From Ignavibacteria bacterium (GTDB lineage Bacteria; Bacteroidota; Ignavibacteria; Ch128b): a DNA stretch of 64,000 nucleotides. The position numbers and the translations under genes were made by a program. The notes beneath the pieces were generated by a model, which did no database searches, was not told the origin of the DNA, and worked only from the letters and a program-made list of their open reading frames with translations. The stretch covers positions 2,374,983-2,438,982 of the forward strand of contig JABLYA010000001.1 of assembly GCA_013177855.1 (NCBI GenBank). Direction: 5' to 3'. Shown piece by piece: positions 30,303 through 38,043 of this stretch. Numbering within the stretch: the first letter of the stretch is position 1; each line of letters begins with the position of its first letter.

Positions 30303-32726
30303 ATGAAAAAAATTATCTTTTTAATCTCTGTAATTGCTTCAACTGTTTTTGCGCAATTTCCAAATATCAGAGTGAGTCAACCATCAAGCACGGATCCAAA
30401 TGAGACAAGCATTGCAATAAATCCACTCGATACACTGAATCTTGTCGCAGGTGCGAACATTCGTTATTACTATTACTCCACAGATGGAGGTTATACATGG
30501 TTTCAAGGAAATCTATCATCACCGCTTGGTGTTTGGGGTGATCCATGTGTAGTTTTTGATTTGAATGGACATTGTTACTTTGGACATTTATCAAATCCAT
30601 CAAGTGGTGGGTATTGGATAGATAGAATTGTTGTTCAGAAGTCAACAAATAAAGGAATTTCGTGGTCGAGTGGTGTTGGAATTGGTTACAATCCACCAAC
30701 TAGAAATCAAGATAAAGAATGGCTGGCAGTCGATTGGACAAATAGCTCATACCGAAATAATATTTATATGGCCTGGACAGAATTTGACTCTTATGGAAGT
30801 TCGAACCCACAAGATAGCTCACGAATTTTATTTTCGAGATCAACCGACGGCGGAGCAACTTGGTCTGCTCCCGTGAGAGTAAGTGATAAAGGCGGAGATT
30901 GTATAGATGAGGACAATACAGTTGAAGGAGCAGTTCCAGCCATTGGACCCAATGGCGAAGTTTATCTTGCTTGGGCTGGTCCTCTTGGATTAGTCTTTGA
31001 TAAATCAACTGACGGCGGTTTAAGCTGGGGAATTGATAAAGTTATTACCTCAATTCCAGGAGGCTGGGACTTTAATGTTCCTGGAATATATCGCTGTAAT
31101 GGACTTCCCGTAACTGCTTGTGATATAAGTAATTCACCTTATCGAGGAACGATTTATGTTAATTGGTCAGATCAGAGAAACGGAACTAACAATACAGATA
31201 TCTTCCTTGTAAAGTCTACTGATGGAGGAAATACATGGAGTCAACCAAAAAAAGTAAATCAAGATAATACTCAGACACATCAGTTCTTTACCTGGATGAC
31301 AGTTGATCCTGCCACGGGCTATCTTTATTTCGTCTACTACGATAGAAGAACTTATACAGATAATCGAACAGATGTATATCTGGCACGCTCCACTGATGGA
31401 GGAGAAACTTTTACAGAATTTAAAATATCTCAATCGCCATTTACTCCAACTTCATCAATCTTTTTTGGTGATTACACTGGAATTACCGCACTAAATGGTA
31501 AGGTTTATCCAATATGGACAAGGTTGGAAAATAATCAGAGAAGTGTCTGGATTGCAATCTTTCAAGATACAATTAAAACTTTACCAACAACTTCTTTCTC
31601 ATTAACTGAAGGTTGGAATTTGCTTTCTGTTCCTTTGAAAAAACAAAATATGTTTTACAAAGATTTATTCCCTGCTTCTAATTCTTATGCTTATAATTAT
31701 CAAAACGGTTATCAGAAAGTAGATACACTTGAAGTCGGAAGGGGATATTGGTTAAAATTCCCTGCTGCTCAAAATGTTACAATACAAGGTTTGAACTTAA
31801 ATGAAATCACAATTCCAATTAATGCCGGCTGGAATTTGGTCGGTGGATTAAATGGTATAATCCCTGTTACTTCAATTCAGACTAATCCTCCTGGAATATT
31901 AACTTCTCCATTTTATGAATACAATGCAGGTTATCAGACATCTAGCCAAATCACAAAAGGAAAGGGATACTGGATAAAGTCAGCATCAGCTGGTGAAATT
32001 ATTTTGAATCTTTCTGGATTGGTAAGGGGCAACATAAATGAAGATTTTGAGATTGAGAAAATTGCTTCAATTGAAATTTCAGACAAAAATAATTCGATGA
32101 GATTATTTGTTACTGATAAAGTTGTTAATAAAGAATTTTTAGAATTACCGCCTCTGCCTCCTTCAAATATTTTTGATATTAGATTTGATGATAATACAAA
32201 TGTGATGTTTAAATCTGAAAGAAGATTGGTTCGAATTCAAAGTGAGAGTTCTACAGCGATATTAAATTACAAATCATTTAATGATGTGTATTTGAAAATT
32301 ATTTTTCTGGATGGGAAAGAATTATTAGTTAAAAGTGACGAAAGAATATCAATCGATCTCACGAAGAATAAAGAATTCTATCTTGAGATTTTAGATAAAC
32401 TTTCTAATGCACAAAAAGAGAAAGAAAACTTTTTCGTAAGTGAAGTTTTTCCTAATCCATTTAATTCTACAACTAAAATCAGAATTTACATTCCTCAAGA
32501 AGTCGGTGAAGACAATAAATTTTTCGCAGAGATTAGAATTTATAATTTGCTCGGTGAATTGGTAAGTCACAATTCAAAAGTTGCAACTTCTGGTTATAAC
32601 GAATTCAGAGTTGAATTTAATGAACAAAAAGTTTCGTCAGGTTTGTATTTTTGTGAAGTGATCATTCAGGATTTAAAGAAGAATTTAATTCATAGAGAGC
32701 TGAAGAAACTAAACTATATCAAATGA
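30303..32726 (+). CDS. T9SS-secreted BNR-repeat (sialidase-fold-like) protein
   Basis: An 807-residue exported protein related to the N-terminal third of the giant BNR protein at 3953. The signal peptide (MKKIIFLISVIASTVFAQ) starts at the ATG at 30303. An ATG four codons earlier (30291) cannot be excluded, as neither has a clear ribosome-binding site. Asp-box repeats such as STDGGYTW, STDGGATW, STDGGLSW, STDGGNTW and STDGGETF form the likely propeller (about residues 15-420). They are followed by the GWNL module (31613 on), ELPPLPP (32143) and a T9SS domain starting VFPNPFNSTT that is longer and more diverged than the others. The sialidase catalytic Arg triad was not identified, so no enzymatic name is given. 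The gene overlaps fmt by four bases (ATGA). Confidence 0.86.
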   Translation: MKKIIFLISVIASTVFAQFPNIRVSQPSSTDPNETSIAINPLDTLNLVAGANIRYYYYSTDGGYTWFQGNLSSPLGVWGDPCVVFDLNGHCYFGHLSNPSSGGYWIDRIVVQKSTNKGISWSSGVGIGYNPPTRNQDKEWLAVDWTNSSYRNNIYMAWTEFDSYGSSNPQDSSRILFSRSTDGGATWSAPVRVSDKGGDCIDEDNTVEGAVPAIGPNGEVYLAWAGPLGLVFDKSTDGGLSWGIDKVITSIPGGWDFNVPGIYRCNGLPVTACDISNSPYRGTIYVNWSDQRNGTNNTDIFLVKSTDGGNTWSQPKKVNQDNTQTHQFFTWMTVDPATGYLYFVYYDRRTYTDNRTDVYLARSTDGGETFTEFKISQSPFTPTSSIFFGDYTGITALNGKVYPIWTRLENNQRSVWIAIFQDTIKTLPTTSFSLTEGWNLLSVPLKKQNMFYKDLFPASNSYAYNYQNGYQKVDTLEVGRGYWLKFPAAQNVTIQGLNLNEITIPINAGWNLVGGLNGIIPVTSIQTNPPGILTSPFYEYNAGYQTSSQITKGKGYWIKSASAGEIILNLSGLVRGNINEDFEIEKIASIEISDKNNSMRLFVTDKVVNKEFLELPPLPPSNIFDIRFDDNTNVMFKSERRLVRIQSESSTAILNYKSFNDVYLKIIFLDGKELLVKSDERISIDLTKNKEFYLEILDKLSNAQKEKENFFVSEVFPNPFNSTTKIRIYIPQEVGEDNKFFAEIRIYNLLGELVSHNSKVATSGYNEFRVEFNEQKVSSGLYFCEVIIQDLKKNLIHRELKKLNYIK

Positions 32727-33655
32727 AAATAATTTTTTTTGGCACACCAGAATTTGCAATTCCTTCTCTAAATGCTTTGTTGGAAAATGGATATGAAATA
32801 TCTGCAGTTGTAACTGTTCCCGATAAAGAGAAAGGGCGAGGTTTAAAGCCTGAACCATCACCAGTAAAAAAGTTTGCTCTTTCAAAAAATTTAAAAGTTC
32901 TTCAGCCAGAAAAATTAAAAGATGAGAATTTTTTTCATCAGCTTAAAGAAGTAAATCCCGATTTGGGAATTGTAGTTGCTTATAGAATTCTTCCTAAAGA
33001 AGTTTACACTCTACCAAAGTTTGGTACCTTTAATCTTCATGCATCACTTCTGCCAAAGTATCGTGGTGCTGCACCTATTCAATGGGCATTAATTAATGGG
33101 GAAAAAGTAACTGGTGTAACAACCTTTTTTCTTCAAGAGAAAGTTGATACTGGAAATATAATTTTGCAAAGAGAAGTTCTAATTGATGATGAAGATTATT
33201 TCCAGACTTTGCACGATAAACTTGCGCAGATTGGCGCTGAACTCGTAATTGAGACAGTTAAATTGATTGAAAACGGTTCATATAATTTGAAGGTTCAGGA
33301 TGATTCAAAAGCTACACGGGCTCCAAAGATTACTAAGGAAATCTGTCAAATCAATTGGCATCAAAGAGCGCAACAAATTCACAATTTGGTTAGAGGACTT
33401 TCGCCTGTTCCTGCAGCATTCACATATCTCGGGAATAAATTAATTAAGATTTACAAAACAAAACTTACGAATGAAAATTCAGATGCAGAAGCTGGAGTAA
33501 TAGAAGTTAAAAATGACGAAATTCTTGTAAGCACATCAGATTATAAAATTTCCATTCTTGAATTACAGCCTGAATCTCGAAAAAAAATGAGTGCAAAAGA
33601 ATTTTTATTAGGTTATAAAAATTTAATTGATCAATACAAGAAATTTTCGTTTTGA
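32723..33655 (+). CDS. fmt: Methionyl-tRNA formyltransferase
   Basis: A 310-residue enzyme of normal family length. It formylates initiator Met-tRNA with 10-formyl-tetrahydrofolate. The N-terminus IIFFGTPEFAIPSL is diagnostic. The catalytic Asn and His are in FNLHASLLPKYRGAAPIQ and the catalytic Asp is in VDTGNI. The C-terminal tRNA-binding domain (from about residue 205) includes QIHNLVRGLSPVPAAF. Its ATG overlaps the stop of the upstream T9SS BNR gene (ATGA), an unusual coupling of an essential cytoplasmic enzyme to a secreted protein. No promoter box of the TAnnTTTG kind was found just upstream, so a promoter may lie inside the preceding gene. Confidence 0.96.
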   Translation: MKIIFFGTPEFAIPSLNALLENGYEISAVVTVPDKEKGRGLKPEPSPVKKFALSKNLKVLQPEKLKDENFFHQLKEVNPDLGIVVAYRILPKEVYTLPKFGTFNLHASLLPKYRGAAPIQWALINGEKVTGVTTFFLQEKVDTGNIILQREVLIDDEDYFQTLHDKLAQIGAELVIETVKLIENGSYNLKVQDDSKATRAPKITKEICQINWHQRAQQIHNLVRGLSPVPAAFTYLGNKLIKIYKTKLTNENSDAEAGVIEVKNDEILVSTSDYKISILELQPESRKKMSAKEFLLGYKNLIDQYKKFSF

Positions 33656-33709: not shown

Positions 33710-34780
33710 ATGAATCCATTAGGCACACAACACATCGCAGAGTTTATTGAGTGCAATAAGACTTTCTTAAACGACCCTCAGAAGTTAGAGCAAATTATTC
33801 GAAATGCAATTGAATATTCGGGACTGCATTTTGAGAAAATCATTACTCATAAATTTAATCCAGTGGGTGTAACTCTTCTTGCAATTATCTCTGAAAGTCA
33901 CATTGGTTTGCATACTTACCCCGAAGCAGGTCATCTTTCGCTTGATGTTTTTACCTGTTCCCATCCGAGCAAACAAATTAAATTGATTGAATATCTACAA
34001 AAAGCTCTAAAACCTACTTCAGTTAAAATTGCAGAAATTACAAGAGGCAACCCAATTGAATTCAAACAGGATGATTGGTTAACGTCCAGGTCAGAATATG
34101 GTTTTGAGGTTAAATATCATATTCAGAAAATTCTTTATTCTAATAAATCTTCCTATCAATTTATTGATGTTATTGAAAATGAACATTTCGGGCGAATGCT
34201 TTTTTTGGATAAAGATTTACAAATTTCTGAGGTGGACTCTGAACATTATAGTCATGCAATGATTGATCCTGTACTTCAAAAAAAGAAAAAGCTAAAAAAT
34301 GTTTTGATACTTGGTGGTGGTGATGGTGGACTTTTGAATTTTCTATTAAAACACAATCCTGAAAAAGTTACACTCGTCGAAATTGATGAAGAAGTAATTA
34401 AAGTTTCGAAAAAATATTTAAAGAAAATTTGTGGTAATTCCTTTAATGATAAGAGAGTAAATTTACTTATTCAGGATGCACTGCAATATCTTCAATCAAC
34501 AAGAGATAAGTACGATGTTTTACTTTATGATTTAACTATGCATCCTGAATCATTTATTAAAGTTGAACGTGAAAAGTTTTTAAATGATGTTTTCTACCAC
34601 ATCTCAAGGATACTTAACCCCAAAGGTATAGCGACATTCCAGGTTGGTTCTGAATATGACAAATTAACACTCCGACTTGTACAAAAACTATTAAAGAAGC
34701 ATTTCAAACAAGTAAATTACTCCCTCCATTTTTTAAGAAGTTATTGTGAACGCTGGGTTTTTGCTGATGTATTAAAGTAG
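33710..34780 (+). CDS. S-adenosylmethionine decarboxylase-spermidine synthase fusion
   Basis: A 356-residue fusion. Residues 1-125 are a prokaryotic SpeD: the pyruvoyl-forming cleavage site is Glu62-Ser63 in SESHIGLHTYPE, with His68 and Cys83 (DVFTC) at the same numbers as in the Thermotoga enzyme. Residues 130-356 are an aminopropyltransferase with LGGGDGGL for decarboxylated SAM and VEIDEEV for its ribose. Together they would make decarboxylated SAM and pass its aminopropyl group to a diamine. The usual catalytic DxTDP motif reads DLTMHP: the first Asp is kept and the second, which contacts the amine, is lost. The gatekeeping YHE..H.PL segment is also altered. The amine accepted is therefore uncertain. 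No Shine-Dalgarno site is visible. Confidence 0.88.
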   Translation: MNPLGTQHIAEFIECNKTFLNDPQKLEQIIRNAIEYSGLHFEKIITHKFNPVGVTLLAIISESHIGLHTYPEAGHLSLDVFTCSHPSKQIKLIEYLQKALKPTSVKIAEITRGNPIEFKQDDWLTSRSEYGFEVKYHIQKILYSNKSSYQFIDVIENEHFGRMLFLDKDLQISEVDSEHYSHAMIDPVLQKKKKLKNVLILGGGDGGLLNFLLKHNPEKVTLVEIDEEVIKVSKKYLKKICGNSFNDKRVNLLIQDALQYLQSTRDKYDVLLYDLTMHPESFIKVEREKFLNDVFYHISRILNPKGIATFQVGSEYDKLTLRLVQKLLKKHFKQVNYSLHFLRSYCERWVFADVLK

Positions 34781-34875: not shown

Positions 34876-36009
34876 ATGGGCTTTTCAACCGACGCAATTC
34901 ATGGTGGACAAAAACCTGATCCTTCAACCAACGCTGTAATTCCACCAATTCACCTTACCACAACTTTTTATCAAGAGGAAATTGGTAAACACAAAGGTTA
35001 TGTTTATTCAAGATCAGGGAATCCAACTCGAGATGTACTTCAAAAAAATATTGCAACTCTTGAAAAAGGCAAATATGCACTCGCTTTCTCAAGTGGATTA
35101 GCAGCAATTCACGCAATGTCAAATCTTTTAAAGAATGGTGATCACGCCATCGTTTCTAACGACGTTTACGGTGGAACATATCGTTTATTTGAGAGAGTTC
35201 TAACAAATTTCGGAATTACTTTCACTTTCGTTGATACGACAAAAGTTGAAAATGTTGAAAAAGCAATTCAACCAAATACTAAACTTGTTCACATCGAAAC
35301 CCCAACAAACCCACTTCTGGCAATAAGCGATATTGCAGAGATTTCAAATCTTTGTAAATCTAAAAATTTGATTCTGAGCGTCGACAACACTTTTATGAGT
35401 CCTTATTTCCAAAATCCTCTTGAGCTGGGGGCAGATATTGTAGTTCATAGTGCGACAAAATATTTAGGCGGTCATAGTGATTTGCTTGGAGGAATTTTAA
35501 TACTTAATTCTGATGAACTTTACGAGAAATTAAAATTTATTCAAAATGCAATCGGGGCTGTACTTTCACCTTTTGACAGCTGGCTTCTTTTAAGATCTGT
35601 TAAAACTTTGGCAGTAAGAATGGAACGACATAACCAGAATGCAATTAAGATTGCCGAGTTTTTGAATTCACATCCAAAAGTTAGAAAAGTTTTTTATCCA
35701 GGTCTACAATCTCATCCTCAGCACTTAATCGCAAAAAAACAGATGCGTGGATTTGGTGGAATGGTTTCATTTGAAGTAGATGATTTTGAAACTGCTAAAA
35801 ATATTATTTATAAATTTCAAGTCTTCACACTCGCTGAAAGTCTAGGCGGTGTTGAAAGCCTTGTCTGCCATCCCGCGACTATGACTCACGCTTCGATACC
35901 AAAAGAAATCAGAGAAAAAAATGGTCTTACCGATGGTTTAATCAGATTATCTGTTGGAATTGAAGATATTGAAGACCTGCTAAATGATCTTGAACAAGCA
36001 TTAAAATAG
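34876..36009 (+). CDS. Cystathionine gamma-synthase/lyase-type PLP enzyme
   Basis: A 377-residue enzyme of the Cys/Met-metabolism PLP family (fold type I), normal length. Recognisable parts: the N-terminus STDAIHGGQ.PD, YSRSGNPTRD (phosphate and substrate tyrosine/arginine region), FSSGLAAIHA, SVDNTF, and HSATKYLGGHSD with the Schiff-base lysine. The late SLGGVESLVCHPATMTHASIP is typical of cystathionine gamma-synthase, cystathionine gamma-lyase and cystathionine beta-lyase alike, so the reaction is not resolved from sequence. The start ATG has a weak GTAGAG upstream. The next gene encodes a second, diverged member, so the pair may catalyse consecutive steps between cysteine, homocysteine and methionine. 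Confidence 0.88.
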   Translation: MGFSTDAIHGGQKPDPSTNAVIPPIHLTTTFYQEEIGKHKGYVYSRSGNPTRDVLQKNIATLEKGKYALAFSSGLAAIHAMSNLLKNGDHAIVSNDVYGGTYRLFERVLTNFGITFTFVDTTKVENVEKAIQPNTKLVHIETPTNPLLAISDIAEISNLCKSKNLILSVDNTFMSPYFQNPLELGADIVVHSATKYLGGHSDLLGGILILNSDELYEKLKFIQNAIGAVLSPFDSWLLLRSVKTLAVRMERHNQNAIKIAEFLNSHPKVRKVFYPGLQSHPQHLIAKKQMRGFGGMVSFEVDDFETAKNIIYKFQVFTLAESLGGVESLVCHPATMTHASIPKEIREKNGLTDGLIRLSVGIEDIEDLLNDLEQALK

Positions 36010-36019
36010 AGAGGTTATT

Positions 36020-37312
36020 ATGAATTCAAATGATAAATATTCAAAAGAGACTCATCTAATTTATGGGAAAGCTTTCACTACAAAGTGGGATTATAATCAT
36101 CATGTAGTTCCACCTGTTTCGTCATCAACTACATTCCGACTTGACTCAGTCGAGAGAGGGGCGCTTGGATTTTCAGAGTTCGGACATTTTTCAGAATTGC
36201 CTGACACCGAACCGCCAATTTACATTTACGATCGACTTGGTGAGCCAAATAAAGAAATTTTGGAAGAGAATCTTGCTGCTGCTGAATCAGGAGAAACAGC
36301 TGTCACATTTGCAAGTGGTATGGGTGCTATTTCTGGTGTTCTTGGAATTCTTACAAAATCGGGTGATGAAATCGTTGCTCATAAAACTCTTTATGGTTGT
36401 ACTTTCTCTTTGTTAAATAACTGGTATCCAAGATATAATATCAAAACAATAAAAGTTGATTTAACCAATCCAGAAAATCTTGATGCTGCAATCTCTGAGA
36501 AAACTAAAGTTGTTTATTTTGAAACTCCTGCAAATCCAAATCTTGAATTAATTGACATCGAAGCTATTGTAAAAAAAGTAGCTGAATACAATAAAAATCG
36601 TTCTGAAGAAAATCAGATTAAAATTGTTGTTGATAATACTTTTGCAACTCCTTATTGTCAGAGACCCATCGAATGGGGAGTAGATTTTGTCGTTCATTCA
36701 TTAACAAAAAATATTGGTGGATTTGGAACTGATATTGGTGGAGTTGTAATAGGTAAAAAGAAATATCGAGACATTTTAATGTTGTATCGAAAAGATTTTG
36801 GTGGTGTTCTTTCTTCAAAAAGTGCCTGGCCAATTATGGTTTATGGTTTACCATCTCTCGCTATTCGAATGAAAGTAGAAATAGCAAATGCGATGAAAGT
36901 CGCAGAATTTTTAGCTCAACATCCTAAGGTTGATTTTGTCAATTATCCTGGACTTCCTTCTTTCAAATTTTATGAACTTGCCCGAAAACAAATGATAGAT
37001 TTTCATGGAAATTTTGCTCCTGGTAATATGATTTATTTTGCTTTGAAAGGAAATACTCCAGAAGAAGGACGAGAAAAAGGTAGAGCTATGATGAATTACA
37101 TTGCTCAAAATGCTTATACTCTTACACTTGCTGTTAGTCTGGGACACGTTCGAACGTTAATTGAACATCCCGGTTCGATGACTCACTCTATGATTCCAGC
37201 TGAAGAACAAATAAAAGAAGGAATTGATCCTGCTGGAATTCGAATGTCAATTGGACTTGAAAATGCTGATGATATCATTAAAGATCTGGAGGATGCATTA
37301 AATCAGATTTGA
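36020..37312 (+). CDS. Second transsulfuration-family PLP enzyme (cystathionine gamma-synthase-like, long form)
   Basis: A 430-residue member of the same PLP family, longer than usual and diverged from its neighbour. It has FASGMGAISGVLG, VVDNTFATPYCQ, HSLTKNIGGFGTDIGG with the PLP lysine, and SLGHVRTLIEHPGSMTHSMIP. An N-terminal extension (PPVSSSTTFRLDSVERGA) and a longer insert around residues 180-200 separate it from classic CGS. The best general label is a cystathionine gamma-synthase or methionine gamma-lyase-like enzyme; specificity is unknown. GAGAGG precedes the ATG, and it lies ten bases after the first PLP gene, so the two are one operon. Its stop overlaps the next start (TGATG). 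Confidence 0.85.
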   Translation: MNSNDKYSKETHLIYGKAFTTKWDYNHHVVPPVSSSTTFRLDSVERGALGFSEFGHFSELPDTEPPIYIYDRLGEPNKEILEENLAAAESGETAVTFASGMGAISGVLGILTKSGDEIVAHKTLYGCTFSLLNNWYPRYNIKTIKVDLTNPENLDAAISEKTKVVYFETPANPNLELIDIEAIVKKVAEYNKNRSEENQIKIVVDNTFATPYCQRPIEWGVDFVVHSLTKNIGGFGTDIGGVVIGKKKYRDILMLYRKDFGGVLSSKSAWPIMVYGLPSLAIRMKVEIANAMKVAEFLAQHPKVDFVNYPGLPSFKFYELARKQMIDFHGNFAPGNMIYFALKGNTPEEGREKGRAMMNYIAQNAYTLTLAVSLGHVRTLIEHPGSMTHSMIPAEEQIKEGIDPAGIRMSIGLENADDIIKDLEDALNQI

Positions 37313-38043
37313 TGAAACCGTTAATTATTAAGAGTTATTTGCTTGGTCAGTTTAAGAATGTCGTTCACGGAATCAGCACTCGAATTGGTTCTGTGAACGA
37401 CTTTAATTTTAATCTTGGAAATTTTTCCAATTCAAGCGAAAAGCAGATTCAAAAAAATCGAGATAATTTTTTTAAAGCACTAAGAATTGATAAAAATAGA
37501 GTTGTCTTTCAGCAACAGGTTCATTCCGATAAATTTTCATTCGTGACGGAACCGGGCTTGATAAAAGAAAATGATGCATTGGTAACAAATCAAAAAAATT
37601 TATTTCTTATAGTGACCATTGCCGATTGTATCCCAATTCTCTTCTATGATGATCAAAATAAAATCGCTGGGGTTGTTCATTCTGGTTGGCGAGGAACTCA
37701 ATCTCAAATCCTTTTAAAAACAATTGAGTTTTGTAAAAACGAATTTAACTTAAGTTTAAAGCACACTTATTTTTACTTTGGTCCTTCAATTTGCAAAGAT
37801 TGTTTCGAGGTTGATGAGGATGTTGCAGTGAAATTCGATCAGCAATTTGTAAGCAAAAAAGGAAACAAGTTTTTAGTAAATCTGCCAGAAATCAATCTTA
37901 AATATTTGCTCGATTCTGGTTTCAAAAAGGAAAACATACATATTTCTAAACTCTGTACATTTGAAATGACAAATTTATTTCATTCTTATAGGCGGGATAA
38001 AGAAAATTCTGGAAGGATGCTTGGAGTAATTGGTATGGTTTAA
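37312..38043 (+). CDS. pgeF: Peptidoglycan editing factor / laccase-domain protein (YfiH family)
   Basis: A 243-residue protein of the YfiH/PgeF laccase-domain family, normal length. The three metal-type ligands are in place: His in FQQQVHSDKF, Cys in ADCIPILFYD and His in VHSGWRGT. Supporting motifs are FGPSICKDCFEV and HSYRRDKENSGRMLG near the C-terminus. Members were first called polyphenol oxidases, then shown in E. coli to remove mis-incorporated serine from peptidoglycan precursors; related proteins act on purine nucleosides. The ATG at 37312 overlaps the previous stop by one base (TGATG); the TTG codon before it is ignored. It is probably translated by coupling. Confidence 0.9.
   Translation: MKPLIIKSYLLGQFKNVVHGISTRIGSVNDFNFNLGNFSNSSEKQIQKNRDNFFKALRIDKNRVVFQQQVHSDKFSFVTEPGLIKENDALVTNQKNLFLIVTIADCIPILFYDDQNKIAGVVHSGWRGTQSQILLKTIEFCKNEFNLSLKHTYFYFGPSICKDCFEVDEDVAVKFDQQFVSKKGNKFLVNLPEINLKYLLDSGFKKENIHISKLCTFEMTNLFHSYRRDKENSGRMLGVIGMV

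Follow-up and report, generated by a model that had tools for sequence, protein, structure and literature searches.

A SpeD-SpeE fusion of the human spermine synthase type in Ignavibacteria, a predicted source of spermine

The closest bacterial relatives of animal spermine synthase (SMS) are mostly fusions of an S-adenosylmethionine decarboxylase (AdoMetDC) with an aminopropyltransferase, with 30-32% identity (PMC12803844, December 2025). Two of these fusions, MBW2649524 from a deltaproteobacterium (358 residues) and MCK4773364 from Candidatus Krumholzibacteria (376 residues), display AdoMetDC activity and lead to spermine and some spermidine in E. coli, spermine exceeding thermospermine about 60- to 10,000-fold (PMC12803844). 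The authors found no SMS-type homologue with spermidine synthase activity only. Homologues of human SMS from corals produce thermospermine (PMC12803844). GGGD(G/C)G is the spermine synthase form of the motif that binds decarboxylated AdoMet (dcAdoMet), as against that of thermospermine synthases; by the motifs of the same study, spermidine and spermine synthases cannot be told apart (PMC11107197). As for the chemistry, Asp173 of human spermidine synthase deprotonates putrescine, aided by the Ser174 backbone carbonyl, Tyr79 and Tyr241 (PMC12812037). Because Ser174 comes directly after it, Asp173 is the first Asp of DSSDP. The equivalent base is Asp276 in SMS numbering, and the second Asp of the motif (D176) is a substrate-binding residue (PMC7298707).

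A gene of this type lies in an Ignavibacteria bacterium, in a stretch of 64,000 nucleotides (assembly GCA_013177855.1, contig JABLYA010000001.1, positions 2,374,983 to 2,438,982) that was analysed as a whole and that we name the window. The open reading frame at 33710-34780 is real and complete from ATG to stop, and it is a SpeD-SpeE fusion: a single chain with a class 1b AdoMetDC followed by an aminopropyltransferase, its 356 residues fitting the ~350-380 of the SMS-like fusion type. Pfam places AdoMet_dc at residues 9-113 (6.9e-31), Spermine_synt_N at 123-174 (4.8e-14) and Spermine_synth at 180-351 (3.5e-38). Domain order and size are like those of MBW2649524 and MCK4773364, and identity to human SMS is similar (28-33% in the clade of the window protein, 30-32% for these two fusions). 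The window protein belongs to another class, Ignavibacteria, and from size, architecture and likeness to SMS we infer that it is directly kin to them. The features are as follows, in window coordinates.

32723..33655, plus strand: fmt, methionyl-tRNA formyltransferase, upstream neighbour (TIGR00460 over cutoff)
33710..34780, plus strand: speD-speE fusion gene, 356 residues, ATG start, stop at 34778-34780
33710..34048, plus strand: class 1b AdoMetDC (SpeD) domain, residues 1-113 (PF02675; SAM_DCase_Bsu; alignment with T. maritima SpeD)
33893..33898, plus strand: Glu62-Ser63, expected self-cleavage site and pyruvoyl-forming serine, invariant in 11 fusions
33911..33913, plus strand: His68, invariant in 11 fusions
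33956..33958, plus strand: Cys83, invariant in 11 fusions
34076..34231, plus strand: aminopropyltransferase N-terminal beta domain (Spermine_synt_N, PF17284), residues 123-174
34247..34762, plus strand: aminopropyltransferase catalytic domain (Spermine_synth, PF01564), residues 180-351; Tyr180 is SMS Tyr177
34313..34330, plus strand: GGGDGG dcAdoMet-binding motif; Asp205 is SMS Asp201 by residue mapping
34529..34546, plus strand: D274-LTMHP motif; Asp274 is the catalytic Asp276 of human SMS
34739..34762, plus strand: SYCERWVF C-terminal motif, with 5 residues after it; Glu347 is SMS Glu353
34876..36009, plus strand: PLP enzyme of cystathionine gamma-lyase/synthase type, downstream neighbour

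No gap is needed to align the AdoMetDC half with Thermotoga maritima SpeD (residues 1-113), and at 106.1 bits this half exceeds the NCBIfam SAM_DCase_Bsu cutoff of 75.65. Glu62-Ser63, His64, His68, Glu72 and Cys83 are all kept, the Glu-Ser cleavage motif being present in nearly all SpeDs compared. As in class 1b AdoMetDCs, His68 presumably plays a role in processing, and we take Cys83 to be the proton donor in decarboxylation. The initial annotation had noted that Glu62-Ser63, His68 and Cys83 were retained, and both the alignment and the invariance of these residues in the 11 fusions bear this out. It had also evoked SpeDs with changed decarboxylase activity, a suggestion that finds no support here: the processing and catalytic residues are kept, the family cutoff is passed, and to judge by its residues this half carries no sign of lost activity. 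A neofunctionalized SpeD acting on ornithine or arginine is similarly unsupported: the genome contains no PF02675 match besides this one, which forms a single chain with the transferase, and it has separate pyruvoyl arginine decarboxylase genes. Finally, the SMS-type fusions differ from other SpeDs in this half. Residue 55 (window 33872-33874) is Thr in all their readable sequences and Ser in nearly all other SpeDs of the set, and they have HTYPE, HTFPE or HSYPE where nearly all others have HTWPE. The change is peculiar to this clade and lies close to where processing occurs, and we list Thr55 as a point against the main reading proposed below.

The transferase half departs from the textbook pattern. 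DLTMHP, beginning at Asp274, does replace DxTDP, and the gate YHE..H.PL is altered to YSHAMIDPVL, as had been remarked at the outset and as the letters confirm. The canonical DxSDP/DxTDP motif, the YHExxxHxPL gate and the full C-terminus are all absent, the chain ending with WVFADVLK, and the scores fall below the NCBIfam speE equivalog cutoffs (TIGR00417, 154.5 against 249.55 bits; NF002010, 180.3 against 260). Relative to DxSDP, DLTMHP comprises one inserted residue and a D-to-H change at the second Asp. DLTM(H/D/N)P is a conserved trait of a clade, not an isolated mutation: D274, L275, T276, M277 and P279 are invariant in 11 aligned fusions, which represent four or more families within the class, and the motif holds at 41-85% protein identity. 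Position 278 is His in nine of them, Asn in one (L039) and Asp in one (L049), which reads DLTMDP and has retained the Asp before Pro. The human SMS sequence used, identical to PDB 3c6k from residue 5 to residue 366, has D276-LTAVP as its motif, and the second Asp is absent there too. Mapped onto the window protein, SMS D201 falls on D205, D276 on D274, Y177 on Y180, Q148 on Q150 and E353 on E347. The idea that the missing second Asp is the one that positions the attacking amine thus fails, because the published mechanisms assign this role to the first Asp, D274, which is present and invariant. Most likely, then, what looks altered is simply how this motif reads in a family described only lately, and the enzyme is neither broken nor exotic.

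Kinship with human SMS appears in several ways. With the intact fusions SMS scores between 82 and 110 bits, whereas no other aminopropyltransferase tested gives more than 60, in a set that took in stand-alone SpeEs of the same class and SpeD-SpeE fusions of the DSTDP type. The profile of the fusions matches SMS with an E-value of 6e-29, and identity reaches 33% across the 243 columns aligned. A maximum-likelihood tree of 42 sequences groups SMS with the 11 fusions (support 100/99), and its placement with eukaryotic spermidine synthases is rejected (p 0.016); after removal of the motif, gate and C-terminal columns, as well as of odd rows, the grouping persists at 99/97, with the spermidine synthase alternative not rejected (p 0.18). 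The SMS branch is long, at 2.5 changes per column, which is why shared discrete traits matter here. DLTxxP with its one-residue insertion is common to the fusions and SMS and absent from the other rows compared. The equivalent of SMS Glu353 (E347) is found in SMS and 10 of the 11 fusions, and in none of the other rows. The C-terminus of the fusions and SMS ends 2-6 residues past the WVF strand, whereas other bacterial enzymes run 42-65 residues further. These comparisons place the transferase half nearer to the animal enzyme than to spermidine synthases, a placement that carries the caveat of the long SMS branch.

The predicted structure points in the same direction. A fold search with the best AlphaFold model (mean pLDDT 91, replacing an earlier poor one made from six closely related sequences, mean pLDDT 70) gave human SMS chains as its six best PDB matches, over ~360 columns and both domains (E ~1e-28), ahead of all spermidine synthases. 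The whole-chain TM-score to SMS is ~0.6, with an rmsd of 9 Å, a low value that is probably due to a differing orientation of the two halves in the model. Animal SMS (PDB 3c6k/3c6m) shares with the window protein a SpeD-like N-terminal domain followed by an aminopropyltransferase, DLTxxP, the equivalents of D276, D201, Y177 and E353, and the short C-terminus. Yet the window SpeD half keeps its pyruvoyl and catalytic residues, whereas its SMS counterpart is devoid of AdoMetDC function. No sequence kinship between this SMS domain and SpeD is detectable with profiles of either SpeD type, in agreement with the literature; the likeness emerges from the fold search alone. One might be tempted to go further, placing the Ignavibacteria clade close to the bacterial donor of SMS to the ancestors of animals and choanoflagellates, with the conserved DLTMHPE loop preserving the SMS active site in its pre-animal form, within an enzyme that has kept both functions; we deem this scenario quite improbable.

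A second kind of SpeD-SpeE fusion occurs in the same class and phylum (L040-L042, L051, L054 and L058, 425-446 residues). It too has SpeD then SpeE in one chain, but its SpeE half displays YHEM, D(S/G)(T/S)DP and a C-terminus of full length, and falls among ordinary spermidine synthases. SpeD-SpeE fusion therefore seems to have arisen more than once. In another case, a 617-residue ORF (L043:1363-3213), a region that looks SET-like by eye is apparently joined, at the N-terminal side, to SpeD and SpeE. Long SpeE-like proteins (ORFs of ~1000 residues, such as L002/L034 in this genome) share a distant Spermine_synth domain but, unlike the window protein, are long and multi-domain. Bacterial membrane-protein/APT-like relatives are reported not to be involved in spermidine or spermine synthesis (PMC12803844).

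The search for homologues covered the genus, the family and the class. Of the 391 genomes sampled from the class, 12, in at least four families, have a close fusion homologue (E ≤5e-93); one is cut by a contig end, the rest being full length or nearly so, and the nearest named record, 85% identical, comes from an Ignavibacteria metagenome-assembled genome. The plasmid, phage and IMG/VR collections yielded no SMS-type fusion, and a phage or plasmid origin of the gene was rejected. The order fmt, fusion, cystathionine gamma-lyase/synthase-type gene is kept in the genus and family (L004-L006) and lost in the more distant L007. There is no Rfam match within the window, which led us to discard a riboswitch or other RNA control. 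A gene of the PgeF/YlmD family (TIGR00726) lies near the fusion, at window 37309-38043. Enzymes of this family are reported to cleave purine nucleosides. Methylthioadenosine, which aminopropyl transfer leaves as a by-product, is among these.

In this genome the fusion holds the only PF02675 match and is the single aminopropyltransferase of stand-alone size; the other Spermine_synth matches are a 1048-residue ORF, a weak one in a 791-residue ORF and one below cutoff. A carboxyspermidine route to spermidine was rejected: no carboxyspermidine decarboxylase match exceeds the cutoff in the genome, where the two large PLP decarboxylases resemble LysA and a LysA/FslC relative. Since no other SpeD, no other stand-alone transferase and no carboxyspermidine decarboxylase above the cutoff was found, we predict that all spermidine and spermine would come from the fusion. 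Neither arginase nor agmatinase was found in the genome. A pyruvoyl arginine decarboxylase passes its NCBIfam cutoff, and two adjacent genes resemble agmatine deiminase and N-carbamoylputrescine amidase, both below the NCBIfam equivalog cutoffs. A second, divergent homologue of pyruvoyl arginine decarboxylase (L078:1483-2004; G000:C7:57988-58479) sits on a small contig with hypothetical and mobile-element-like ORFs, and may be carried by a phage or a plasmid.

Taken together, we propose, with a probability of roughly three in four, that the product of the gene is a bifunctional AdoMetDC-spermine synthase akin to human SMS, which forms dcAdoMet and then converts putrescine to spermidine and spermidine to spermine. 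Behind this proposal stand the domain order, the catalytic residues in both halves, the grouping with SMS, the likeness of fold to SMS across the two domains and the presence of a single copy. By analogy with characterized relatives, the SpeD half would cleave itself at Glu62-Ser63, form the pyruvoyl group and decarboxylate AdoMet; it would probably also hold the dimer together, like the N-terminal domain of animal SMS. In the transferase half Asp274 would act as the base for the attacking amine, and the aminopropyl group would be moved to putrescine, giving spermidine, then to spermidine, giving spermine, with release of methylthioadenosine. Arginine would supply the putrescine, through the action of pyruvoyl arginine decarboxylase, agmatine deiminase and N-carbamoylputrescine amidase.

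The alternative that best withstands these data is an enzyme with an SMS-like sequence that makes mainly spermidine from putrescine, spermine being a trace product. As the sole candidate aminopropyltransferase of the genome it must supply any spermidine, the published bacterial fusions leave detectable spermidine (PMC12803844), and the motifs of PMC11107197 do not tell the two activities apart. We nevertheless hold it to be unlikely: DLTxxP, Glu347 and the short C-terminus match animal SMS, the bacterial relatives of which make spermine, and the search for an SMS-type homologue restricted to spermidine synthesis was fruitless (PMC12803844). It had been proposed that the fused enzyme may use another amine. 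This stands if that amine is spermidine, the best predicted acceptor after putrescine, and nothing points to an unusual product. Agmatine, cadaverine or some other acceptor, or thermospermine as the product, would be very unlikely, even though coral SMS homologues make thermospermine and the putrescine route passes through agmatine in a genome where no agmatinase was found. Without agmatinase, aminopropylagmatine would have no obvious path to spermidine. GGGDGG fits the published spermine synthase pattern, not that of thermospermine synthases, a function rejected as GGGEGA is absent, and the two characterized fusions strongly favour spermine over thermospermine. As for an enzyme inactivated by loss of the second Asp, a substrate-binding residue in spermidine synthases (PMC7298707), it is scarcely credible when the equivalents of SMS D201, D276, Y177 and E353 are all kept, the motif is conserved down to 41% identity and human SMS is active without the same Asp. 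With catalytic residues conserved and this human precedent, neither an exotic product nor a dead enzyme was retained as the main reading.

The bifunctional AdoMetDC-spermine synthase reading extends to Ignavibacteria a type of fusion that has just been described in bacteria. It predicts that these organisms make spermine, while automatic annotation would give spermidine synthase. The signature made of DLTxxP, S-(Y/F)-x-E-x-W and a short C-terminus separates SMS-type enzymes from spermidine synthases, and it could help trace the origin of animal spermine synthase.
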